A stretch of 64,000 nucleotides of DNA, from assembly GCA_021904315.1 (NCBI GenBank), contig CM038919.1:16299666-16363665 (forward strand). The letters run 5' to 3'. The stretch's first letter is position 1. Every line of letters starts with the position of its first letter. The position numbers and the translations under genes are program-made. This document shows, piece after piece, positions 8,501 through 30,830 of this stretch. This DNA comes from Sphagnum magellanicum (Eukaryota > Streptophyta > Sphagnopsida > Sphagnales > Sphagnaceae). The notes under the pieces were generated by a model. It made no database searches, was not told the DNA's origin, and saw only the letters and a program-made list of their open reading frames with translations.

Positions 8501-9453
8501 TTGTGTCCTACTCTTGTGTTAAATAATCTTCAAAAGGTTCAAACTATCAACATTTTTTAAGCCCATATGTATCTTATGTTAAATTTTGGGAGTTTTGTTA
8601 TATTACGACGTATTGATCACATATGATCTTATCAAGAAACATGTGTAATCATTTATGATCTTATTGAAAAGCATGTGCAATTCGTCAAAAGGAAGAACAT
8701 ATTTATGAAAAAGTTGATTCTTGTAATTAACAATTAGTAATTTTAAACATGTTGAAACTTTAGTATTTATATTGGTTATCAATTTCATAATTGTGAAAAT
8801 GTGAATCTCATGTTTCTATGATGGTTGTTTTTTTTTGAAGGATGTGAAGGTTCATGTTGCTAGTTTCATGAAACTTTGTCAACCAAAGTTAATCATTGAT
8901 TTTTATTAAACTGTAAAGCCTAATTAGTTATAGAACTATTGATTAAAATGAAGTTACATTATAGATTTCATATTAAAATAGTTTGTAACCTAAAAGGAGT
9001 GAGCACATAAGATAATAAGAGAAGAACATGATTGAAAACTATTTATTATACTTAGAATTCCATTTTGTAGAATTTGAATCCTAAGCCATAGAAACCTTAC
9101 AATAAAAACCTAGGTCTTTTGCTTCGACAAAAGTTCAATAAAAATTGAAACATAATGTTGTTGCAACAACATTTATTACACAACTCAATTCATTCAATTG
9201 AAGATCTTGATGATGCTTATTTAACTAGTATTTTATATTTTTTGATACTAAATCAAACGTTTACTTCATGATTATTGTAGGTTTAGCTAAAGATTAGATT
9301 CCTTGGTGTTCTTTTAATCCCTTGAGTTGCTAGAATCCCACCCTTATCTTGCAATGCATCAGTTCACACACATTATCTTTGCAACACAGCTAGAACAACC
9401 CCTCTTCCCATTTAGTAAGTGGTTCAAAGGTGTGATAACTCTAAAACAAATGG
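5517..9453. other. AT-rich intergenic DNA
   Basis: About 3.9 kb with no recognisable gene, RNA or element ends. A short direct repeat (TTGGACCCTTGTCTAAAG) occurs twice near 6266 and 6350. Open frames here are short and in low-complexity AT-rich sequence. Confidence 0.5.
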
Positions 9454-10135
9454 TGTCGTGACATGGAGTGTCGTGGCGTTTGGTGTCATAAAGGTGTAAA
9501 TCCGTAGTAAACTCTATTGAACAAAAAGACTAAAACCAGCCAAAGGTAAAAACTAATCACCAAAAAGAAATGCACACACATATATATACAATGCACAAGA
9601 GGACGCTGAGATGAAATTCTCATGTATCTAAATTAAAAAGAAGGAAAGAAAACGTAATGTATGTAAACGGTGGCATGTAATAACTGTCGTGAGCATCTAG
9701 AAATTTAGTTTGACTATGGAGGAAACTCTCCCTGACAAAGGAATTCTAGAAAAACTAATAAGAAAAGGGAAGAGCTTGGCCTTTTATATAGTCGTTAACA
9801 AGCTGAAACCCTAAACAAACCATAACCCTAAAACACCTAATACCATATAGTAATCTAATAACATACAATAACCTAAGAACGTACATTAACCTTAAAGGCA
9901 TGATTAGCATGCTCGTAACTGGCCGTCATGTATGAGGCCATGCATATGAACATGACAACTGTCATGACATGTAGTGTCATGATGTTTAGTGTCGTAAGGG
10001 TGTAAATCCATAATAAACTCTACTGAACAAAAAGACTAAAACCAGTCAGAGGTAAAAACTAATCAACCAAAAATATATGCATGCACATATATATATAATG
10101 CACAAGAGGAAACTGAGATGAAATTTTCATGTATC
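9454..10135 (-). repeat. Left (3') LTR region with a partial second LTR copy
   Basis: The block 9629-9957 matches the right LTR 18499-18810. It is flanked on both sides by a 175-bp direct repeat, 9454-9628 and 9960-10135, whose copies both begin TGTCRTGACATG and end CATGTATC. The span 9454-9957 starts TGTC and ends GACA, as an LTR should. The minus strand carries a TATA box (CTATATAAAAGGCC, about 9778-9793) that is also present in the right LTR, marking the U3 promoter. The 2-bp spaced CATGACA/TGTCATG contact at 9951-9966 looks like a two-LTR junction. The true LTR limits remain uncertain. Confidence 0.75.
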
Positions 10136-10150
10136 CCCCCCCCCAAACTT
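10135..10150 (-). other. Probable polypurine tract
   Basis: On the minus strand the sequence reads AAGTTT followed by ten G residues. It lies directly before the LTR-like repeat and downstream of integrase. This is the expected position and composition for the plus-strand primer of an LTR retrotransposon. Confidence 0.6.
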
Positions 10151-10742
10151 GAACTAGGAAAAGCATGGCATGGTCTAAGTAAAAATCAAGGTGTTGCAGG
10201 AGAACATGATGAACAATACCAAAGGCCGGCAGGAACTTGAATGAGCTCCAGCTTGAGGCAGAATAAATGGTATCCACCATTATAATTATTGTAAAACAAC
10301 ATTTGATCAGCATTGTCTATCCTCTAACATACCTGACATGGATAGTCAAGTGGAGGAATCCAAGTCGACATGATGATGGTAGGATCCAAGTTCAACAGGT
10401 GGTAGGGTGCACTGTTTTTGGAATGATTCCGAATTATGCGTTTGTTAGTTCCTTGCAACTCTAACACACCTAAAGGCCTGATTGCCTAAATCCTTAAGAT
10501 AATGCAACTATAAGAAATGTCCAGAATATCATTAGGTTGTCACTAGAGATATACAAAGTCACCAACATCAAATTATCTCACCTTAGGTTTGTAACTGCCA
10601 CCTCATGTGTGTGTATACCGTAAGGTGTTTCGATGTTGTGCAATGGACAAGTTCTCCATGGCCATGGGCATAACCCTCCTGAATAGAGCAACCCTCTCTG
10701 TGATGACCCTAGCCCAAGTGGTTGGGAATCCAAGTCCACAAC

Positions 10743-11592
10743 TTAGTCCATTTGAGCAATAATGGAAGAGGGTGGAATGGGATGTTTCCTAAAAAGTAGA
10801 AAGTAAGGAGAGAAATGAAACAAAGAGGCGTGTTTGGACATCTTGTAACCCATGGCAATGTAAGGTAGGGCGAGGTCCCAATCCTCTTTGTTCCTAGTGA
10901 GGCAAATCTTCCGAAGTCCCTTCTTAAATGTCTGAACCATCCTTTTTACAAGGCCATCAACTTGGGGATGATCCCTTGAAGTCCGGTGATGGTCAATGAG
11001 AGCATGATCAAGTAGGTCTTGGAATTTTCCTCTAATTTTGATCCTTGATCAATAAGGCACTCAACACAAGCCCCAAACCTACTTAGGACCTGTTGTAAAA
11101 AAGCTTGGTTGGTGCTATATGATGATTTGTTCGGTAGTGCAACAAGCTCGACCCACTTTGAAAAATGCTCAATCATAATCATGATGTAGACATTGCCCCT
11201 AGAGGTCTATGGTACCTCTCCAGCTAAATCACATGACTAGCGATAGAACATGCCCTGAATAGGGAGTGGAAAAAGCGTGAACTGTTGAGAGGAAAAGGAA
11301 GTTCTCACTCTATCACATTGTTCACACCTAGTAATGACGTTTTGGACTTGAACATACATACCTTTTCAATGGTAATGACGGGTGAGAAGGCTATAAGTAC
11401 ACTTAACTCTAAAGTGTTCAAGCTTCGAATGTACCTTCTAAATAAAACCAAGCCGTTCATGTGGTGGAGGAACCACTCTGTCACCTTGTGGTAAACATCA
11501 GATGAAGTGATTATCCTTCCATGAGTAGCGTTTAGACCGCTGTTATATGCGATCTCAATGGCTTGATGTAACTTGGGGAAAATATTCCCCAT
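10743..11592 (-). pseudogene. Integrase remnant of the Ty3/gypsy element
   Basis: Minus-strand fragments hold an integrase core. A first catalytic Asp lies in CDLAGEVP (codon 11228-11230) and is followed by an in-frame stop. IEHFSKWVELVAL comes next, then the second Asp in CLIDQGSKL (codon 11048-11050). After a frameshift, DGLVKRMVQTFKKGLRKICL and WDLALPYIAMGYKMSKHASL follow, ending near 10743. The third acid of the DD(35)E triad is expected at the K of DGLVKR (codon AAA, 10944-10946), so the catalytic Glu is replaced by Lys, one G-to-A change from GAA. The second-Asp to Lys distance is 104 nt where the family spacing predicts 108, so a small deletion also exists. Not functional. Confidence 0.85.
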
Positions 11593-11849
11593 GTTGAAGA
11601 AACTTCAGAATGTCCAAGTCCTCCCATATATCCACAATGGGATGTTCAACCAGGTTACATTATATTAGTGCAAGATAACTAGATGCATAAGATACATGTA
11701 ATGTTGAAATCTTATCAAAGTTTTGTCTAGCTTCTAACAAATCTTTAGAAGTAGTGAGGGGTTTTCACGACATGGTATCCATGTTCTGATGTGTAATACC
11801 AGGTCAGTGAATAACCTTGAATTCATACTCTTAAAGTATAAACGCCTAA

Positions 11850-13243
11850 CGAACTAACTTACTAATAAGCTTGTTGTTGGTCATCAACCAATTGATAGGC
11901 TGGTGGTCGGTATACAAAGTGAACTTGGTGCCATATAGATAGGGCCTAAAATGTATGATGACCCATACAACAACAAGACATTCCCCCTCATATGAAGAAT
12001 AGTTGCTTTCAACCTTGTTGTTACTTTGGGATGCATAGGCGATAACATATTCCTTGCTTTCCTCATCAAGTTGGCCAAGAATAGCACCAATACCAAAAGC
12101 ACTCCAGTCAATGTGTAGAATGAAGACCTTGCTGAAATCAGGTTTTCTCAGAATGGGGAACTTTCAAAGCTTTTTCCTTTAATGTGTTGAAAGTTTCCTG
12201 AACCTCTTCACTCCATGTCCAAACAACATCTTTTTTTAACAATGCATAGAGAGGATGAATAATAGTATTGAAATCTTGGACATAAATCCTGTAGTAATTA
12301 CATAGTTGGATGAAGTTCCTCAAAGTGTGAACATTAATAGGATTGGGCATCTCCAAAATGGCTACTACTTTGGCCCAATGAACCATAATACCATTTAGCA
12401 AAATTCTGTGTCCAAGGTAGACTACTGAAGTGACAACAAACTCACATTTTTTAGGATGGATCTTCATATTGACTTTGTGGAGCTTTTTGAATAACTCCTC
12501 AAGATGAACCAAATGCTGCAAAAGTCCCTTGCTATGCACTAGGACGGCATCTATGTAGCACTTCAGGAAATTTGCCCCTTCGAGAACTTGGTCCATCATT
12601 CGTTGAAAGAAGACAAGTGCATTCTTTATTCCAAAAGGCATCATAAGCCATTCCCACAACTTGTTACTTCCATGGAATGCCATTTACTTGCGATCCTTTA
12701 CAATGAGCACAATCTAATTAAAACCTTGCCTTAGATCCATAATTGTGAAGATGTTTGAGTCTTCAATGCCATCAAACAATTTTTCAAGGATGGGCATGGG
12801 ATACCTATCCTGAGGTGTAACCAGGTTCAAAGGTTTATAATCCTCGCACATCCTTTTCTTAGTCCATAATCCAACTGAATCTTTCTTTGTTGACATTATT
12901 GTAATGGCTTCGAAATTATAACTTGATGGTTGAATGAAATTAACTTCATGGAGTTCTTTGCATCTTTCATCTACTAGTTCCCACTCATGCTTGCTCAACC
13001 TATGCCTCCTCCAACCTATGTCTCATATGTAAGGTCTATAGAGAACTGCATGGTCTTACATTTACTTAAGTCTTTCATTGAGAATGCAAACAAATTATCA
13101 TATTTAATTAGCAAATTTGTGACCTGGTCTCTCTCCTTCTTGGTGAGCTGGTTCCCCATAATGAAAGGGTAGTTGGAAACACATGGAATGGAATTGGAAA
13201 ATGTGTTGGAAGAACCTAGTGTATTGGGTTTTCCACTATCCAA
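11850..13243 (-). pseudogene. Reverse transcriptase-RNase H remnant
   Basis: The RT N-terminal part (13243-13016) contains KYDNLFAFSMKDLSKCKTM. The fingers follow (12998-12714) with RMCEDYKPLNLVTPQDRYPM and FTIMDLRQGFN, which keeps the first catalytic Asp (codon 12735-12737). A stop follows, then 12683-12138 has MPFGIKNALVFFQRMMDQVL. The YxDD box reads YIDA (12546-12557), so the last Asp is lost through an A-to-C change. KIHPKKCEFVV and LGH complete the thumb-proximal motifs. In another frame, 12150-11850 is an RNase H domain with its three acids: HIDWS (GAC 12107-12109), EGEC (GAA 11981-11983) and YTDHQP (GAC 11906-11908). Broken by stops and at least one frameshift. Confidence 0.9.
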
Positions 13244-13438
13244 CTACGTAAATTCGTAGAAGGTTGTAATTATTTCTCCAGAAGCTGATGTATCTCCAAG
13301 TGTATCATAAACAACTTGAATCAAATTACATGGTACTTCCTCCCCCCCAACATGAAGAGTGAAGTGTAGAGTGTTGAAGATAGGCAAGTGTATTTGGTTG
13401 AGGTGCCATGTAGTCCCATTGCTAGAACTACAAGTTGA

Positions 13439-14430
13439 TTAAATCAGTGTTGGTGTTGTGTACATTTGAAAAAGTACACATGTAACTAACAACCATGTAA
13501 GGGAGTTCAAGTCCATGCCTCTCTTCAGTAGAGCGTTACATTCTAATCTAGTCACTTTGGTGTGATTAGTAATGCCAATTTGGAACCCCATAACCCTTTC
13601 TCTTTTTTTCGGGCTTGGTTCATCCCAAGTGGCTAAAGCATGACGATACACTAGGCCTGGTCTATCTCCCTGAAAAGCGTGTGTTCCTAGGAAGGAAACA
13701 AAGGTGGGCCAAACACCTTTTGGATTTCCTATTGTGTTCGTAGGAAACCAAGGAGGTTTTTCTTACCTTGTAATTGGTTGGCAGGAGCTCTAATCATCCA
13801 ATATGTGAGAAAGCTATTGGTTGGGGTCTCTGATGGTGTATTTCAGAGCCAACTATAGAATTAAGAGTGGTGCAAGGTTGGTCCTCTAGTTGCACAACCA
13901 ATGTGCATAGGAACTGCATTGTGCTGCATCGAGTAGGAGTGGCTTTCCAAGGTAATGTTTGACTAGCGTCTAGTGCTCCTAGACTTTCTTCCTCTGGTCA
14001 AGCTGAAAAGGGGTGTTCTCAATTACATAAGCAAGTGTAAAAGAAATGGATTAAGCCTGGTGATTAATTGTACCATGTCTATGAAGAGACCGAATCTTGT
14101 GTCACTCAAGTTTTCTCCAAATCCAATCGCTAAAAATCCTTGACACTCCCAACCTGAAATGATGAGGTCCACATGGCCAAGTAATTTCATATGCTTCTTT
14201 TGAATTAATTATATGTTAGAGGGCAAGAAAGTGAAACTAGCCTTCCATGTAGTGGTTGCAAATTGTTGTGGAAATATAATTGTGAGCTTCATCATTCTCA
14301 ATGCCGCCACCTGCCTTGCAATAGGATCAATGTTTACATAGAAATACTTCTGAACCACCATCCCTGATTATAGTAGGGCTTCGAGACGAGTACCAATACC
14401 ACCAAAGAACTTTAGTAATGTAATCCTTTC
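13439..14430 (-). pseudogene. C5-cytosine DNA methyltransferase-like domain inside the retrotransposon pol region
   Basis: C5-methyltransferase motifs run in canonical linear order on the minus strand. Motif I is LLKFFGGIGTRLEALL (FFGGIGT at 14389-14409), followed by a motif II-like acidic strand, KYFYVNIDPIARQ. Motif IV is VDLIISGWECQGF, with the catalytic Cys codon at 14143-14145; a Glu stands where Pro is usual. LSDTRFGLFIDMVQLI (near 14105-14065) matches the DxRSxLF block. Motif VI is AYVIENTPFQLDQR (ENT at 14012-14020). Motif VIII is LLLDAAQCSSYAHWLCN (13939-13874). The C-terminal motif IX/X region (13651-13439) has ERVMGFQIGITNHTKVTRLE then LLKRG. Motifs I-V share one frame and VI-X another, so one frameshift separates them; several TAA/TAG stops are present. 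The family makes 5-methylcytosine from S-adenosylmethionine. The order is not permuted, so this is not a plant DRM type. This copy cannot be functional. Confidence 0.8.
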
Positions 14431-14661
14431 TTTAGTCGGTGTCTAGGTGATTCATTAACGAAACATTAACTTAATCAATTCACCATGGCTTTCCATGTTT
14501 TCAAAACTAGATAGAACTTTGACCAAGGGCTCATGGGCTGCTTTGAACCTTTGTAAAACCTTTGGTTCGTGTTGAATGTCTATATGAACCACCTTCAAAC
14601 TTTCAGTAGCTTGGGCGTAAGCTATCTCCTTTTCATCTCCTTCTATCCACTCATGGTTAAC

Positions 14662-15263
14662 TTATTGGGTGTAGGAAATGGTGTGTGCTTCCTTGAGCAT
14701 ACAATGGCGAGTCATAGGACTATGGTTCCCATGTAAATCAAGGGGTATGTATTTTAGGTGGTGGCCATCAGTTTCCCAATCCACTCGATAATACGCATGT
14801 TCAAACCAGTTGTTAATTATGAAACCTAGTGGAAGCAAGGCCTCTTGCCCAATGAACACATTATAACTAATGGCATGGTGACTAAACATCTAACTTGTAA
14901 GCAAAGCTCCTGATCTGTACCTTCATTGAAGTTAAGTGTAATCAAATCCGAGTTCTCCCTAAATACCTCCTCTATGCTCCCACTAATGGTACGAATTTGC
15001 CACATAGATTTCCGTAGTTTGGAATCGAGCATGCCCATCTTCTTGGCGAATTGAACTCTAAGAATCATTAGTTGGGCACTTGTATTAAAAAGTACCATTA
15101 TGGGTGTATGTCTTCCCACTTGGATTGTTGACTCAGTATTGTCAACAATGGCAACTCTAGTGGTGATGGACGTTCTTTCACTAGGCACCACCTTCGGAAA
15201 TGAGTGAAAGATTTTGTGGAGAGAATGATTATCCACAACGCCTTTGCTGAGTAACAAATCCAT
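14662..15263 (-). pseudogene. Retropepsin-like protease remnant and linker
   Basis: The minus frame 15263-14826 has TRVAIVDNTESTIQVGRHTP then PIMVLFNTSAQLMILRVQFA, placed like the retropepsin flap and active-site strand. The expected LxDTGA reads LFNTSA: the catalytic Asp is Asn (codon AAT, 15084-15086) and Gly is Ser, both single G-to-A type changes. Downstream, in a shifted frame (14889-14662), YNVFIGQEALLPLGF and YRVDWETDGHHLKYIPLDLH are the typical tail of this protease region. Immediately downstream lies the methyltransferase segment, not RT. Confidence 0.75.
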
Positions 15264-15589
15264 AAGTGAGGTGTTCTTAACTCCCTTCTAATATGTGAAT
15301 GTAGAATTAGAGGTAGGAGAGCCACTAGTTTAGCCATGCTAGAATTAATGACCAGATTACGAACGCCATCTACAACACGTGAGCCAATGGAATGTCTCTC
15401 CAAGGTGTTGGATGGGACCCCTGTAACATGTGGATTAGCGATTAATAGAAGACCTGATGTAGTGTTCAGGGTATCCTTTAGTACTGCAATTATGTCCTTG
15501 GTGTTTAGTTTCAAAATTTGAAAACAAAACAATGGTGTACTCACAAGCTTTTGCACCACTTCACGCATTTGAAGTTGGCACTCCATATG

Positions 15590-17690
15590 CTGATTAATGG
15601 AAAATTATGTGTTTTCATGATGTACATGTACTCTTGGGACACGAGAATTTGATGCCCTAACAATTTATGGTGTAGTAATATCCTCCCCCTTCGCTAACAA
15701 GGTGCGTTTTTCTTCCATGTTGAAAAACGAAAAGATTGTGGCATGATTGCTCGAACTCTTCTAGCCCTGGTAATAGGACTTGAACTAGATGTGAGTCCAT
15801 TAGTTTGAATTATTTGCCTAGTGGCAGAAACTTTGGGTGCCACACTAGCTTCTTATGCCACGAAGTAGGAAGGGAAAAAAAAAGTCGCAAATTCTGAAAT
15901 GAAACTAGAATTGTGTGCACTAGAAAGAACATATTCCCCAACCATGGCATCATGTGAAAGGCCATAGAACGACCTAGGAGGTCCCTCCCGTGATCTTAAA
16001 CCCTGTACAGGTTGGGCATGACTTGTTGGTTGGGAAGACTTGCCTTTTAAATTAGCAAGTTAGGCTTTTAATGACTCGAGTTCATTTTGCAAAGTTTGAA
16101 TTTGAGCGGCATGGGCTTGAAGCACCTCCCTCTTGTCAGCATCTTCTTAGCATTCTTACTGGAATTACCTTTGGTGGGGAGAACTTGAATGGAAGGTTGA
16201 ACTACCTTGGCTTTTGGTTGAGAGGCAACAAAAGATGTTGGTAGATTTTGCTGTGGTAATCGAAGTTGCTTCCATTCTAGGAATTTGGCAAAACAAATAG
16301 CTTCCTAATGTCCTTCTTTCCCACAATAATCACAAAAGAGATCCTCGAAAGGAATGTTGCACTCATTAGCTTTATGGGCAGGATTGCCATAGTAGTTGCA
16401 AAAAGGTAGGATGGGTGTAGCCGAATGCATCGTTTTAGCCCTTAAAGAAGAATGTGATGATCTGGTTGGCGTAGCTAGTGGAGGCTAAGGCCTTGAACGT
16501 GATGGAGGCCTCATAATACTGGCTTCATAGTGTGCATGAGCCAGTTCAAACTTTTCAGAAATGTTGTACACATCCAACAAAATGTACGAGTTTTCAAATT
16601 CTGCAAAAACCTGTTATAAAACCTTTACATGGAGTGTGAAAATACTTTCCAACGAACGAAAATACCGATGCGCAGCTTCCAAGTTTGTGATGCTTTGAGT
16701 ATCCTCTTTAAGCTTAAGAAGCCTCTTGTAGAGCATCTTAAGGGTTTCAACCTTCTATCGAGAAAAGGTGGCGAGTTGTAAAATTTTTTCAGATTTCTTG
16801 ATCGAAAATTCCAGCTTAAGAACTCGAAAGAATTCCCCCATTGGATCAACAAAAGTTGGTGATGGTGGGAGGAATGTTTGCGATAACAACAATGAATTGT
16901 TGAGGAGAAAGGTTTATTGAAGTAAGTACCAATTTTGGATTATTAGGGCATACTCCCATGATGTTCAATGGTAGCTTGTAGTGCAACTTGAGAGGTAGCG
17001 GCAATGGTTGAAGCATAAGCTAGATTGGGGATTTGAGTGACGCCCAAAATTTTCGAAGAATGTTGCTCGTAAACATCCAATGCCTCATAGTGCACATAAT
17101 GGGCCAGTTATTTGAATGTGAACACTTCAGTGTAATTAGCGCCATACTTGAGCTCCAATTCACAAACCACAGTTGAGAAAGTTATTTTGAATTCCTTCAA
17201 AGAAATGGTACTTAGCCTTTCGCTGAACTTTTCAATTCTCCTAGAGGAATTGTTGACCTCCATGGTGTATATGGGTGTAGAGGTCACAACTTGTAGCGGA
17301 ATATACGCTGATGGTGTGAAGGTTAGTGCAACAATAGGCATACCCACTAATTAACCCCCTTAAATGGACTCTGATGTACCATTGATGTAGTGTAACCTGA
17401 ACCTAAATTCCTGGTAAGAGTTGTATTAGATGACAATGGCACTATAAATGCTTGATGGTACCATTCTTAATATCATGAGCTTAAAGAAATCAGCTCAAAT
17501 GATTGTGTGTTAGTTCGTAGTTGATACCTTAGCTTTGGCTGAGCGATAGTGCTCTCATCATATGAGGTCATGGTGTTGTCCCATGTCCTATGCCCCAAAT
17601 ACGGTGCATCGACGGGGATGAACGGTGACGGATGGATGTCAATGGATGGAAGGGGCCGGATAGACGAAATTGGATGGATGGACAATGATG
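15590..17690 (-). pseudogene. gag remnant with tandem CCHC zinc knuckles
   Basis: Gag-like stretches include SSRRIEKFSERLSTISLKEF and ELELKYGANYTEVFTFK (17347-17108), followed by a helical capsid-like segment around 16850-16625. Two retroviral-type zinc knuckles follow. Knuckle 1 (16359-16400) reads CNYYGNPAHKANEC: the second Cys of CX2CX4HX4C is Tyr. Knuckle 2 (16293-16334) reads CDYCGKEGH, stop, then EAIC, so the pattern is kept but a TAG interrupts it. Nucleocapsid knuckles bind the element RNA. The segment 15590-15260 between gag and protease is a low-conservation linker. Multiple stops and shifts are visible. Confidence 0.8.
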
Positions 17691-17850
17691 GACGACGATG
17701 GACAGAATAGGGACGGACGTTAGACGGAATGAGGACGCATGTTAGACAGAATGGGGATGAACGTTAGACGGAATGGTGACAGATATCAAACAAAACGATG
17801 ATGGACATTAAACGGAATGGATGGAATGGCAAAATAGAATGGATAGCAAT
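17640..17850 (-). repeat. Degenerate minisatellite at the 5' end of gag
   Basis: On the plus strand, imperfect units of about 22-25 bp of the type GGACGTTAGACGGAATG recur about five times. They are preceded by GGATGGATGG-type short repeats. In the minus-strand reading this gives a Pro/Ser/Ile-rich N-terminal region upstream of the gag core. It may be 5' leader or N-terminal gag sequence. Confidence 0.6.
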
Positions 17851-18498
17851 GTGACGGATTGCACCAACGACTGCACTAGTAACGACACTTCAGAGTGATC
17901 CACGTCCATGAATTTTGTAGTGATGGTGTGTAAAAGAGAAGAAATAATTTTTTTTCTTCTACTTCATGTTTTTGTTTTCTTTAAAATTCTCTTAATCTTC
18001 TTCTTCTAGAGCTGTTATAAGGGCTACTCACTACATGATTACAAGCTCAAAAACACACATGAGTGCACATCCCAAATGTTAACCTCAAAACCCATGTACA
18101 AGGAAAGCAAGTGTATGTGGGGTTGCATCACCTGGTGTAGATCTTGTATTGTAATCAAACCTTATGTGTGTGTGTGTATGTGTGTTTTTAAAACCTAAAG
18201 CTGGCAGTAAAACAAACTTTGGAGTTGCTTGCTCCTTCCTCCCTCCAAAGTTTCGAAACTTAGAAATTCATAGCTTGTAGCTTGTTTCTGGTGTCCCTTC
18301 TCCTTCGCTTACATTGTTACTATTTATGGTTGTTGTTGTTGTTGTTGTAGTTGTAGTACAAGAATATAAAAAAGAAAAAAAAGTAGCAGTAATTCAAGAA
18401 CACAAGAAAACAACAAGTAAAAGAAACCCAAGAAACTCAAAGCCAGGAAAAATCTACCGCTTTCGACATTAAGTGACAGAGAGTAGTTTTTTTAGAAT

Positions 18499-18810
18499 TA
18501 AATTAAAAAGAAGGAAAGAAAATGTAGTGTATATAAACGGTGGCTGTGCAATAGCCACTATGAGCATTTAGAAATCTAGTCTAACTAAGGAAAAAACTTT
18601 TCTTGATAAAGGAATTCTATAAAAACTAACAAGAGAAAGGAAGAGCTTGGCCTTTTATATAGCCGTCAACAAGTTAAAACCTTAAACAAACCATAACTTT
18701 AAAACACCTAATAACGTAGAGTAACCTAAAAGCGTACATTAACCCTATAGGCATGATTGGCATGCCCGTAACTAATTGTCATGTATGAGGCCATGCATAT
18801 GGGCATGACA
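18499..18810 (-). repeat. Right (5') LTR segment
   Basis: Matches 9629-9957, with shared blocks such as AAATTAAAAAGAAGGAAAGA, GGAAGAGCTTGGCCTTTTAT and CATGTATGAGGCCATGCATA. The minus-strand TATA box (CTATATAAAAGGCC, about 18649-18662) is conserved. The 175-bp flanking repeat seen at the left LTR is absent on both sides here. A small TG-rich microsatellite (18169-18186) and a TTG/TTGTAG tract (18329-18357) lie just inside the element. Confidence 0.8.
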
Positions 18811-19963
18811 ATGAAAAGCATTCAGTTTATGCAAAAACCATTATAAGTATAAACAAAATGTTTTATGTGGACTTGAGGGTGTAAAATTAGTTTTGCAAAT
18901 TGACAAAATCTTGTATTTCACTAATTTCCTACTTCAACTTAAGGATATTTTTGATGGGTTTTTCATACTAACCATTCCAAATAATTAATCACCTAGGCTT
19001 GATTTATCTATTAAATCCTCTCCAACAAAATGCATGAATATATAATTGCTTACATGCCCAAATTGTTACAACTCGGACCACCTTGTGTTCTCATCATTCT
19101 TGGCACCAATTATTCTTATAATATCAAAAGTACATAACACATTGCCTTAAATAACTATTGGTGTAATGGAAGAAAAACACAAGAACTACCAACATAAGTT
19201 GCCCAACAAAACTTGCAAATTCCCCAAACCAATGGGTTGATAACTTACCTTTGATCCCAATCAACATCATCTTGATATTCCCCTTTTGTCCAAAGTTGCA
19301 ACCTTTCCAAATTCCACTTGTTGAAGTTTCATATTTGTTATTTCATACCATCCATATCCCTGATAGGATAAGTCTTTTGTTATACAAAAACAACAAACAA
19401 ATCTTCTACTTTACATGCTCTTTTCAACTTTTGAAGCTCTTATGACAATGTTCAAAAAAAAAGGAACAAACAACCACAAAAAGCTTTTCACCATCATCGT
19501 GCAAAAAGTTGATAATGACACAAAGTTTAAAAGCCTAAAAATTCTATGTGGTCCCACTAAGAATACAAAGAATTTGAACTATGATAAACTTGTAAACAAA
19601 ATTGAAGCAAAAGCAGCTTAGATGGAAAGCAATTATTACTTGATTGTAATTTGAGCTAGATTAAAAAGCATGGTGATTTTGAACAACACCAAAAAACTTT
19701 TTGATATTGAATATGTGCTCATGAATGTGCTTCATATGGGTTTTTGGTGTCTAATTTTTTTTGTGTAGTCTTTTGTATTTCAAGCAAAACAATTTCATAA
19801 GTTTGTAATTCACAAATCCTGCCTGCCATCCATAAAAAGAAAAAGCTCTTTTATAGAAGAAACCTGAAAGAAAAACAGTGGTGTATGTAAAGTTTAAAAA
19901 ATAAAAATAAAAATTTGTTTTATAGAAAAAATTCTTGTGTTTGTGAGCAATTATGTGTTACAA
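18811..19963. other. AT-rich intergenic DNA
   Basis: No gene recognised. A short open stretch (19415-19621) ends with a Lys-rich peptide resembling the gag-polyprotein leader of copia-type elements only in composition, so it is left unassigned. Confidence 0.4.
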
Positions 19964-28294: not shown

Positions 28295-30570
28295 TCATGG
28301 ATTATAGAATTGAGGTGGAAGTCGGGGAGTAGCTCGAGCTTTCAAGGGTGTGACCAAGGACATAGTGAGTCCAAATGCTTCCTCTTGCATGTCAATGTCA
28401 TCCTTACCCTCAGGGAGTTGCCAATGGAAGGCTTGTAGTAACCGAGCAAGTCCTAATGTCACAATGCATTGCCCGAGTGAAGCACCTGGACATACTCGCC
28501 TGCCTCCACCAAAAGGCACTGAACGCATCTCTGGATCAATCCTAAGAGGATCCACATTCCCCGTGTCGAGCCATCGTTCTGGCCAAAACTCTTCAGGCTT
28601 GTCAAAGGATTCAGGATTCCGGCCCATGTCCAAAGCGTTGATAAGCACGGTGGTGTTTTTAGGTATGTCATAGCCTGCCACTTTGGTGGGCTCTCTTGAC
28701 ATGTGTGGGACAATGAAGGCACCACCAGGATGGAACCGGAGTGTCTCCTTGAACACTGCCTTGAGGTATGTGAGCTCATTGAGATGAGACTCCTGTACCA
28801 CTCTTTCGATTCCATTCTCATCTTTACCACATACTTTGCTAATCTCTTCTTGTATCTTCTTTTGCATTTGGGGATTTCTCACCATCTCTGCCAAAGTCCA
28901 TTCCATGGGCACCGACGAAGTCTCTGTGGCCACAGCCATTAACTCCTGTGACACAGCAACAATTCAAAGATCGGCATCTATCTTCTTCTTTTGAAGTGTA
29001 TGACAAAGCACGAGGTGAACACTATCATTAAGGCGCCAGGTGAACATTATCATAAACAACATGCAAAGATCACAAGGCACTAGGGACAAAGAGTTCAATA
29101 AGGTTGAAATTTCAAACCAGAAACTGCAGTGAAAAATAAGAAATGAACTCACAGTTCACACAGTAAAACAACATGAGGTCATGACCATTCCTCAACAGGT
29201 GGGACCAAATGGACACTACTACATCGTTCCTTAGCGAGTCCTTCTAGTCTGTCCCGTAAACCCCGTCCCTTACATCCTCACCCAACAGTAGCCATGGTGT
29301 TTTTGGGTTTCTGTGAGATTTCCACTTAACACCCAGCGTTGGTTCATGCAACAGCAGCAATGGTGTTTTTGGTTTTCTGTGGGATTTCCACTTTACTCCC
29401 AGCTTCGGTTCATGCAACTGTAGCAATACTTGTGTTTTTTGGGTTTCTGTGAGGAGCTAACTTGTATTGCAAAGAAGAGAAAACCTTGAATTTTTTATAA
29501 TGTTGTCACTCTAGTAATCTAGTGTACATGTCATGAGAGTTGCGTACCAGAATGAGAGCTTGAATGGTGTCATTAGAAAGGCGTTCAGCGCCGTTTTCAC
29601 CAGGCAAAGCCAAGAGGACGTCCACGAAGTCATGGGCGGATTGCAGAATGTCTGCATCGACTGCTGCTGCACCACTACCACCCCCGCTACTAGTAGTTCT
29701 ACAGCTTCGAGCTTTCAAGGCAGCCTCGTAGTGCTCTCGCATGATGACGTCGAGAAAAGTTCTTGCCTTGCGCATCGCCTTCCTCATCTGGCGTTCGTAG
29801 CCTTGAAGATCAAACGGTTTCAGAAACGGGATGTAATCACCCACGTTGAAAACACCCAGTAATTTGAATGCTACGTGCAGATAATCTTTGAAAGCCGCCG
29901 CTTCCTGTACTGATCCCTGCACGTCTGCCGCCGACGCACCGAAGTATTTCTTGGACATCATCATTCTTGTGGCGATGTTCATAGTGAAAGTAGTCAAGAG
30001 TTCTCGCAATTCGACTTCCTGGCCAGCTTGTTTAGAAGCGATCTCAAGCACCTGCGAAACGAGAATTTGAGCTTCCTCGTGCCTGTCCTTGTGGAAACGC
30101 TGAAGTCGACTGGGTGCCAGAAGCTCCTGAATGCAAATCTTGCGCAGATGACGCCAGTGGGGACCGTATTCACTGAGTGCGAACCCCGCGCCTCCGTATA
30201 CCATGATGTCGCGAGCTGAGCTAGGGGGTCTTGAACAGAACACATGGTCTTGATGCTTCAGAAACTCACGCACGATTGCTGGGCTGTTTGTCACCACTGT
30301 GGGTCTAGACCCGAGACGAAGATACAAGAGTGGCCCGTATTTCTTGTTGAGCTCCATCATGCGTCGATGGGTACTACAACCTGCAAAGAGCGGTAGATTG
30401 CCTACGATAGGCCATGGTCGAGGCCCTGGAGGCAACTTCAGGCCTTTTCTCTCCTCCGAGCTGATCACAAACCAATGCACCCATAGCAACAATAGCAACA
30501 GCAATGGAATCAATACCCCAGGCTGCACAAATTTCCAACTCCATAACTCCTCGCTCGTCCAAGTCTGCAT
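28295..30570 (-). CDS. Cytochrome P450, A-type (CYP71 clan)-like
   Basis: Two exons, 29548-30570 (341 codons) and 28295-28945 (216 codons plus TAA-type stop), joined by a phase-0 GT-AG intron of 602 bp; 557 residues. The start is ATG 30570 (MQTWTSEELW); codons upstream to 30585 are open but lack ATG. Features: membrane anchor (residues about 18-36), proline hinge PPGPRPWP (47-54), C-helix WRHLRK (139-144), I-helix AVATETS (345-351), ExxR in KETLR (E408, R411), FWPERW (461-466) and heme loop PFGGGRRVCPG with ligand Cys493. Such enzymes are ER-bound monooxygenases using NADPH-P450 reductase. The single intron just before the I-helix fits A-type genes. The I-helix reads VATET where AGxDT is usual. 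A Ser/Gly/Ala insertion (293-303) makes it slightly long. Substrate cannot be inferred. Confidence 0.92.
29287..29455. repeat. 66-bp tandem repeat in the P450 intron
   Basis: Units at 29287-29352 and 29353-29418, plus a 37-bp partial third unit to 29455. The unit contains GGTGTTTTTGGGTTTCTGTG, ATTTCCACTT and GGTTCATGCAAC. It lies close to the intron 5' splice end. The period is 22 codons, so the minus strand stays open across it, but the location is intronic. Confidence 0.85.
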
Positions 30571-30830
30571 GTCGATCTGCAACAATTATGGAGACTGTCT
30601 ACAAGTCTTTTAGCTTCTAATCCCCGGTCGACACAAAGTTCAGAGCGAGGCAGGTGCTCCTCAAAAGGGGAAAAAATAAAATAAAATCCTCAAACACAAA
30701 AACACGAATACAACCCAAGCTCAAATACTTGCTTCTACTCTCAAAGAAAATGTACTAGCTACGCTGGATGGACTCGCTTAAATAAGATTATTATTAGACT
30801 TGGATCTAGTACTCAGTTGTGAGCTCCAGG
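30571..30830. other. 5' flank of the P450 gene
   Basis: Probable 5' UTR and promoter of the minus-strand P450. AT-rich; no convincing TATA box was picked out. Confidence 0.35.

Follow-up and report, generated by a model that had tools for sequence, protein, structure and literature searches.

Cytosine DNA methyltransferases (MTases) carried inside retrotransposon proteins are already known. The closest described system is KnitGypsy-Dnmt3 from Klebsormidium nitens, for which the main text of de Mendoza et al. (2018; PMC5890265) describes an unrearranged Dnmt3-type domain in the Pol ORF of a gypsy element, a Ka/Ks below 0.2, and repeats structured as in DIRS elements. This enzyme gave no methylation in yeast, a result called inconclusive by its authors, and methylation activity in yeast was published in the same article for the SymbioDIRS enzymes (PMC5890265). 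SymbioDIRS-Dnmt3 from Symbiodinium has A-coding-B-A-B repeats and two domain orders (PMC5890265) and, together with SymbioLINE-Dnmt, likewise places a DNMT in a retrotransposon protein. DNMT3 members inside retrotransposons are also mentioned in PMC12344493, where streptophytes and dinoflagellates are cited. An open-literature search for names of gypsy elements with a DNMT gave PMC5890265 alone, and in this and the other searches none of the matches listed, a coverage outside which most subscription papers and preprints fall, reported such an element from a bryophyte. The Phygy clade from the moss Physcomitrella consists of non-chromovirus Ty3/gypsy elements described as rather short, with a coding sequence that nearly fills the inner part (Neumann et al. 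2019; PMC6317226); a word search found no "methyltransferase" in the main text of that article.

The elements described here, from the moss Sphagnum magellanicum, resemble KnitGypsy-Dnmt3 in having a Dnmt3 domain within a gypsy Pol ORF and DIRS-like repeats. Compared by description only, they differ from it in their land-plant host, in the presence of two families in one moss, in a PHD finger ("PHD" is absent from the main text of PMC5890265 by word search), in 4-bp target-site duplications (TSDs), and in a short form with the arrangement B-coding-A. The Symbiodinium elements have a tyrosine recombinase or LINE machinery, whereas the moss elements have a DDE integrase and a gypsy-type reverse transcriptase (RT); with Phygy they share being non-chromovirus gypsy elements in a moss. 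Together with their liverwort relatives, the moss elements extend the DNMT-bearing gypsy kind, itself already known, to land plants. With hundreds of copies, some of them fully open, Sphagnum is a host in which to ask why a transposon carries an enzyme of the transposon-silencing type.

The analysis started from a window of 64,000 nucleotides of the S. magellanicum genome (contig CM038919.1, positions 16,299,666 to 16,363,665). Positions 9454-18810 of the window, on the minus strand, are a decayed copy of a Ty3/gypsy-type retrotransposon family of this moss, with split direct repeats. The ends were located with units A and B of an extant copy, and the internal parts were mapped by tblastn with L039, an extant copy of the same family (family 1) with an open frame, to which the internal homology was 86% over 7675 aligned columns. 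From the 5′ end and all on the minus strand, the copy begins with a unit B of ~310 bp starting with TGTCATG (18497-18810, low end approximate; B positions 1-281 match 18810-18526 at 74% and the rest is placed by length). It is followed by a gag-like N-terminal polyprotein part split over several frames (15237-17290), where residues 1-690 of the L039 frame match in pieces 61-78% identical; the name is given by position, and a Pfam search of the L039 frame matched no gag family there. The aspartic protease domain (14758-15194) was placed by tblastn and by reading the frames, and the Pfam family gag-asp_proteas was at cut-off in L039. Its active site is DTGA in the family-1 copy L005 and relatives, and NTSA in the window copy. 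Downstream of the MTase (13403-14424) lie the RT (12378-13007, tblastn and ORF; active site YIDD in L005 and relatives, YIDA in the window), RNase H (11807-12227), an integrase with an H2C2 zinc domain and an rve core (10935-11491; PF17921 and PF00665 in L039), and a C-terminal PHD finger (10189-10350; PF00628, 5.4e-11 in L039). A poly-G tract resembling a polypurine tract, read directly at 10134-10144, immediately precedes the first unit A (9960-10133, 79% to unit A of an extant copy on C8). The second unit B (9629-9957, low end approximate) matches in two pieces at 79-82%, and the second unit A (9454-9626, 82%) forms the 3′ end of the element. The 5′ untranslated part contains short, imperfect tandem repeats of 22 bp at 17684-17771; in two other copies, L040 and L041, long internal repeats occur on the matching side.

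The L039 MTase matched the window at 14424-14059 and 14050-13403 with 78-80% identity, covering 338 of 342 residues (E 7.7e-144). An earlier first-pass annotation of this DNA had placed a MTase between protease and RT, on the same strand and in the same order, and this was borne out by the protease at 15194-14758 and the RT at 13007-12378. Of the domain span given there, 13439-14430, the presence of the MTase stood and the low end moved by 36 bp, to 13403. Position 14662, regarded there as the end of the protease tail, proved to be only an ORF boundary. The catalytic Cys codon was read directly at 14145-14143 on the minus strand, the same place as previously proposed. We identified motif I (LLKFFGGIGT), motif IV (DLIISGWECQGF), a DTRFGLF block, motif VI (VIENTP), and a motif IX/X block (PTFVSFLG ... 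KKRERVMGF), spread over two frames with stops; the window MTase is not one frame because of 11 in-frame stops and one 1-nt deletion. The suggested membership of the Pfam family DNA_methylase held, since an extant copy scored 34.7 bits (E 1.7e-8), above the cut-off of 22 bits, and the 61-aa motif IV piece from the window scored 21.6 bits, just below it. The 107-aa motif IX/X piece from the window, searched alone, matched no Pfam family. The window copy is dead, a fossil.

In the S. magellanicum genome (439 Mb, 31 contigs), a search with the 992-base segment as DNA query found 39 other copies, 85-87% identical over at least 983 of 992 bases (40 scored of 476 candidates, window included), and a protein search with the MTase gave 109 matches (108 scored of 1132 candidates). 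Eleven of the 109 were free of stops, ten of these across the whole query, and 98 contained stops. Probes of 26 bases, allowing up to three mismatches genome-wide, gave 319 sites for the protease, 388 for the MTase, and 427 for the RT; the reversed-pattern controls of all three gave no sites. The MTase segment is thus about as frequent as the protease and the RT, and the possibility raised in the first-pass annotation, that copies of the family would consistently lack it, failed on this ground. The segment is generally present in copies of the family. Among 43 exact MTase sites on contigs C1-C5, an exact RT site (mismatched RT sites were left out of this count) was located 820-880 bases downstream in 26, at another distance within 5 kb in five, and not at all in 12. 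Copies with protease, MTase, and RT in one frame, which the same annotation had named as support, were also found: L005 is open for 1328 codons spanning these three domains, and L039 has a single frame of 2379 codons with the order gag-protease-MTase-RT-RNase H-integrase-PHD. The 15 Pfam matches of L039 include the aspartic protease at cut-off, DNA_methylase (35.4 bits, cut-off 22), RVT_1, RNase H, H2C2, rve, and PHD. A phage-integrase family, the mark of a tyrosine recombinase, was not among them. The Pfam matches of L039, the domain map, and the RT tree with gypsy-type rows as outgroup agree on the order RT-RNase H-integrase with a gypsy-type RT.

A Pfam search of the same genome (104 matches; 123 scored of 387 candidates), from which ten loci were examined, revealed a second, distant MTase-bearing gypsy family (L046, L048, L049, and L054) with the motif GWPCQGHS. 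Protease, MTase, and RT were identified in three of these loci, and MTase and RT in L049. Database relatives, taken as the best 120 of 1330 and the best 120 of 230 matches, came from the liverwort Calypogeia fissa (P0166, P0245, and P0246), Sphagnum balticum (P0235), Closterium sp. NIES-53 and NIES-54 (P0097 and P0054), and Haematococcus lacustris (P0106, P0119, and others); no tracheophyte-named protein with a MTase match was among these best matches. P0166 combines protease and MTase in one protein, with 72% identity over 64% of the query. Domain maps drawn with locally built profiles separated two architectures. Type 1, protease-MTase-RT-RNase H-integrase with or without a PHD finger, was seen in Sphagnum, Calypogeia (as far as the fragment reaches), Closterium, and many more. 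Type 2, protease (where the protein reaches)-RT-RNase H-MTase-integrase-PHD, was seen in Haematococcus and many more. Of 43 proteins with a long MTase and an RT, 22 are type 1 and 21 are type 2, and the MTase stands just before the RT or after RNase H in all of them. The PHD finger, present in 10 of the 22 type 1 and 19 of the 21 type 2 proteins, several of which are incomplete, is absent from the Closterium pair and from the long proteins of the Closterium group and is thus not universal in MTase-bearing elements. In P0106, a second PHD finger lies nearer the N-terminus (residues 221-274). By eye only, a C-terminal stretch of P0009 (approximately residues 1990-2142) resembles another SAM-dependent methylase.

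When solved sequences were searched with one element MTase, 29 of 30 matches, including the best 29, were DNMT3A, 3B, or 3C. A 20-row profile gave 54 matches, with DNMT3A best (7.4e-26) and HaeIII (3e-8), HhaI (5e-8), and DNMT2 (1e-7) lower. The named DRM2 (3e-11) and 4onj, annotated as "DNA methyltransferase" (2e-14) and a chain that we take to be a DRM, matched over the part before the permutation point. No DNMT1 occurred among the 54 matches, and a DNMT1-type origin was rejected. Alignment to DNMT3A showed that the C5-MTase motifs I, IV, VI, VIII, and IX/X of the element domain are unpermuted. Three host loci (L064-L066), which we read from their motif order as probable DRM-like host genes, are permuted; a DRM origin was rejected on this difference, in agreement with the earlier remark that the motif order does not point to DRM. 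An unpermuted host DNMT3 was not among the seven genome matches to a DRM exon query (three clear permuted genes and four decayed pieces), a result that covers one query and is no proof of DNMT3 absence from the host. No relatives were found in the viral contigs searched, and a viral origin was discarded. A bacterial source was likewise rejected: among 11 loci in genome contigs, only L071 was a strong relative, and the other ten were weak and partial (E 1e-6 to 5e-5). L071:87-6593 aligns in a single stretch, interrupted by one stop, with residues 150-2374 of the moss polyprotein (38%); its contig, binned as a Synechococcales cyanobacterium, is most likely a eukaryotic contaminant of that bin.

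Conservation was counted in 63 domains that span 85% or more of the model, near-duplicates among them: all 63 retain the catalytic Cys, 62 the ENx Glu, and 59 the first Arg of motif VIII. In C5 methyltransferases, the residue ahead of the catalytic Cys is almost always Pro. In the same 63 domains this residue is Glu in 37, Pro in 24, and Asp in two; motif IV reads WECQ in family 1, without Pro-Cys, and WPCQ in family 2. By its sequence, the domain is a cytosine methyltransferase of the DNMT3 type, for which methylation of DNA by extant copies is a predicted activity.

The explanation that we favor, and consider fairly probable as a whole, is a MTase-carrying gypsy family that arose by a single capture followed by one move of the domain, and that uses the enzyme for self-methylation. 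Its structural and evolutionary part is very probable; for the self-methylation role, we see slightly less than an even chance. The ancestor of a gypsy lineage whose named hosts are green algae and bryophytes would have taken up the MTase once, and the domain would later have changed place once within pol. In the most likely course, the element protease would release the MTase from Pol, and the enzyme would then act in the particle or the pre-integration complex on the element's own DNA, methylating the new cDNA before or just after integration. A new copy would thereby enter the genome already resembling silent host chromatin, and the PHD finger beside the integrase may steer insertion or hold the complex on marked chromatin. 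This proposal is based on the position of the MTase, its conservation, and the published yeast activity of the SymbioDIRS enzymes (PMC5890265). The yeast result for KnitGypsy-Dnmt3 (PMC5890265) and the Glu that replaces Pro in family 1 and in 37 of the 63 domains speak against it.

Alternatively, the domain may be kept for something other than 5-methylcytosine on DNA, either methylating RNA (for instance a primer or the genomic RNA) or clamping nucleic acid within the RT complex, which we regard as unlikely. The Glu in place of Pro in 37 of the 63 domains, the placement just before the RT or after RNase H in all 43 proteins, and the negative yeast result for the Klebsormidium relative (PMC5890265) would all fit such a role. 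A pure clamp, however, would need none of the conserved catalytic Cys, ENx Glu, and motif VIII Arg, nor the PCQ of family 2, and the best profile match is DNMT3, with the tRNA enzyme DNMT2 far behind.

Constraint on the MTase equaled that on the RT. Pooled pairwise dN/dS over ten stop-free copies was 0.43 for the protease, 0.28 for the MTase, 0.28 for the RT, and 0.29 for RNase H, and over 30 copies it was 0.32 for both MTase and RT. Because these copies ranked highest in MTase protein score, the MTase value is biased downward; the RT, free of that selection, gave the same value. Over 7100 aligned bases, 943 differences separate the window copy from L039; at 589 of them a C or G of L039 is replaced in the window by T or A, respectively (C>T or G>A). 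By context, such changes affect 84 of 284 CG sites (30%), 158 of 464 CHG sites (34%), and 347 of 2505 CHH sites (14%). For L040 and L039, a young pair, the skew is missing, with 98 changes in one direction and 112 in the other. In this one old copy, the skew has the form expected of 5-methylcytosine decay in plant contexts, and it would fit host methylation and self-methylation equally well. The CG and CHG decay, together with the stops in 98 of the 109 MTase matches, would also suit a MTase that restrains its own element: by starting the silencing of each new copy, it would let lineages that do little harm survive. A reading in terms of benefit to the host is discussed in PMC5890265. Host silencing leaves the same trace, and we consider self-restraint as improbable as a role on RNA or as a clamp.

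The preferred explanation of one capture and one relocation was examined with trees of both domains. In a tree of RT and RNase H (54 rows), 44 MTase-bearing rows were separated from ten gypsy rows without MTase with support of 100/99; type 2 formed one clade (100/100), and type 1 reached only 80/90. In the MTase tree (45 rows), a single branch again set type 2 apart from the rest (100/99), Sphagnum family 1 grouped with Calypogeia P0166 (100/100), and family 2 grouped with Calypogeia P0245 (100/99). The midpoint root of this tree, which holds element domains alone and no cellular DNMT3 outgroup, falls within type 1. P0073 and P0078 were left out of it after long-branch warnings in an earlier tree; with both kept, type 1 needs five changes, and P0073 stands apart from all others. 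A quick 118-row RT tree, in which no single branch separated the outgroup and long-branch warnings were given, showed the same picture, with P0133, a gypsy protein that has no MTase, at the base of the MTase-bearing clade. In P0133 the RNase H is followed by the PHD finger and then the integrase. Three further rows without MTase lie inside the MTase-bearing types, P0116 and P0134 in type 2, and P0061, whose protein starts close to the RT, in type 1. The trees suggest that the MTase was captured once, was relocated once, and was lost a few times; which way it moved, and whether the element MTases are strictly monophyletic, is outside their reach.

The two domain orders would also be accounted for if related DNMT3 genes had been captured independently several times, at two positions in pol, and the Klebsormidium case was called an independent acquisition in PMC5890265, where the Symbiodinium captures also indicate that recurrence is possible. 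We nevertheless consider repeated capture quite improbable. Type 1 and type 2 MTases are 35-39% identical and match each other at 157-221 bits, compared with only 37 bits for the match to DNMT3A, and the trees of the RT and of the MTase divide in the same way, a pattern that one old capture with one relocation fits better than repeated captures. The first-pass annotation had viewed the element as a land-plant case that would extend reports of such capture from a charophyte alga and dinoflagellates. MTase-bearing gypsy elements do occur in land plants, and the trees suggest an old capture common to a lineage that includes green algae, not a local one-off in land plants. That an unrelated intronless gene or insertion lies in the window copy by accident, as the broken frames of the raw window alone might allow, has practically no probability left and is refuted by the hundreds of copies, the single frame, the two families, and the occurrence in other species. 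A chance resemblance was rejected on copy number, frame, and other species as well.

The termini were examined in both families. In the C8 copy, unit B is 308 bp (TGTCATG...TTTCA) and unit A is 177 bp (TACATGAG...CACGACA); its A units are identical to each other, as are its B units, and its insertion is therefore recent. Two arrangements were observed, B-coding-A-GC-B-A (long form) and B-coding-A (short form), and the junction CACGACA-GC-TGTCATG is also found in family 2. The ends are therefore split direct repeats, B and A, in place of the plain identical LTRs previously assumed, and the reading as an ordinary LTR element was dropped. Exact 4-bp TSDs were identified in five of the six family-1 copies read at both ends (TAGG, CTCT, TGAC, GGAG, and GTTC), three of them short-form copies. 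The sixth is the window copy, a long form flanked in element orientation by the TSD remnants TCAT (18811-18814) and CCAT (9450-9453), which match at three of four bases. In family 2, both copies read have exact TSDs, the short-form L083 (CTTG/CTTG) and the long-form L082 (TTTC/TTTC), which carries an insertion in its second B; in total, seven of eight copies read at both ends have exact 4-bp TSDs, a length within the 4-6 bp typical of Ty3/gypsy. Beside the 5′ repeat, where a Ty3/gypsy element has its tRNA primer-binding site, the sequence following B is ATTCTAGAAAA or near it, with no TGG start, in all six family-1 5′ ends read, a reading of the element's own sequence.

PAT/Ngaro-type elements, which also have split direct repeats, share the order of terminal repeats with the moss elements. 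They depend on a tyrosine recombinase and are not known to produce TSDs, and the moss elements differ from them by an rve integrase and 4-bp TSDs. An integrase, short TSDs, and split direct repeats in one element raise a second question, on retroelement replication.

The 18-base 5′-end probe was noisy, with 528 sites at up to two mismatches and 172 in the reversed control, and the 44 exact sites alone were therefore used. Of these, 23 had long-form junctions downstream, 21 had neither, and none had extra 5′ units. The random opening of a two-junction ring as the source of the A-B-A arrangement is disfavored, as the mirror form B-A-B-coding-A occurred at none of the 44. Genome-wide, with up to two mismatches, 99 B-A junctions and 419 coding-A junctions were counted; within probe tolerance, 21 of the 99 B-A junctions had an A-B junction ~310 bases upstream, and 78 had none. 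Loss by recombination of the block between two A units explains the B-coding-A form equally well, and the junction counts, weak on this point as detection decays with age, are only suggestive. The near-palindromic A-GC-B junction looks like two element ends joined, which may reflect a ring, a self-primed cDNA, or a tandem. Taken at its widest, the material could represent green-plant retroelements with a DNMT3-type writer, a PHD reader, and a DDE integrase that works on split direct repeats in place of LTRs, in which the internal junction CACGACA-GC-TGTCATG would be the joined ends and DIRS-like, ring-related replication would be combined with insertion by the integrase, 4-bp TSDs, and self-marking; this is a tentative reading that we find rather doubtful.

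One family-1 copy (G000:C4:3308672-3309342) carries a second A-GC-B junction 488 bp from the first, which gives the look of a repeated 3′ block. Elsewhere in the window, at 28295-30585 on the minus strand, two long ORFs together appear by eye to resemble a plant cytochrome P450.
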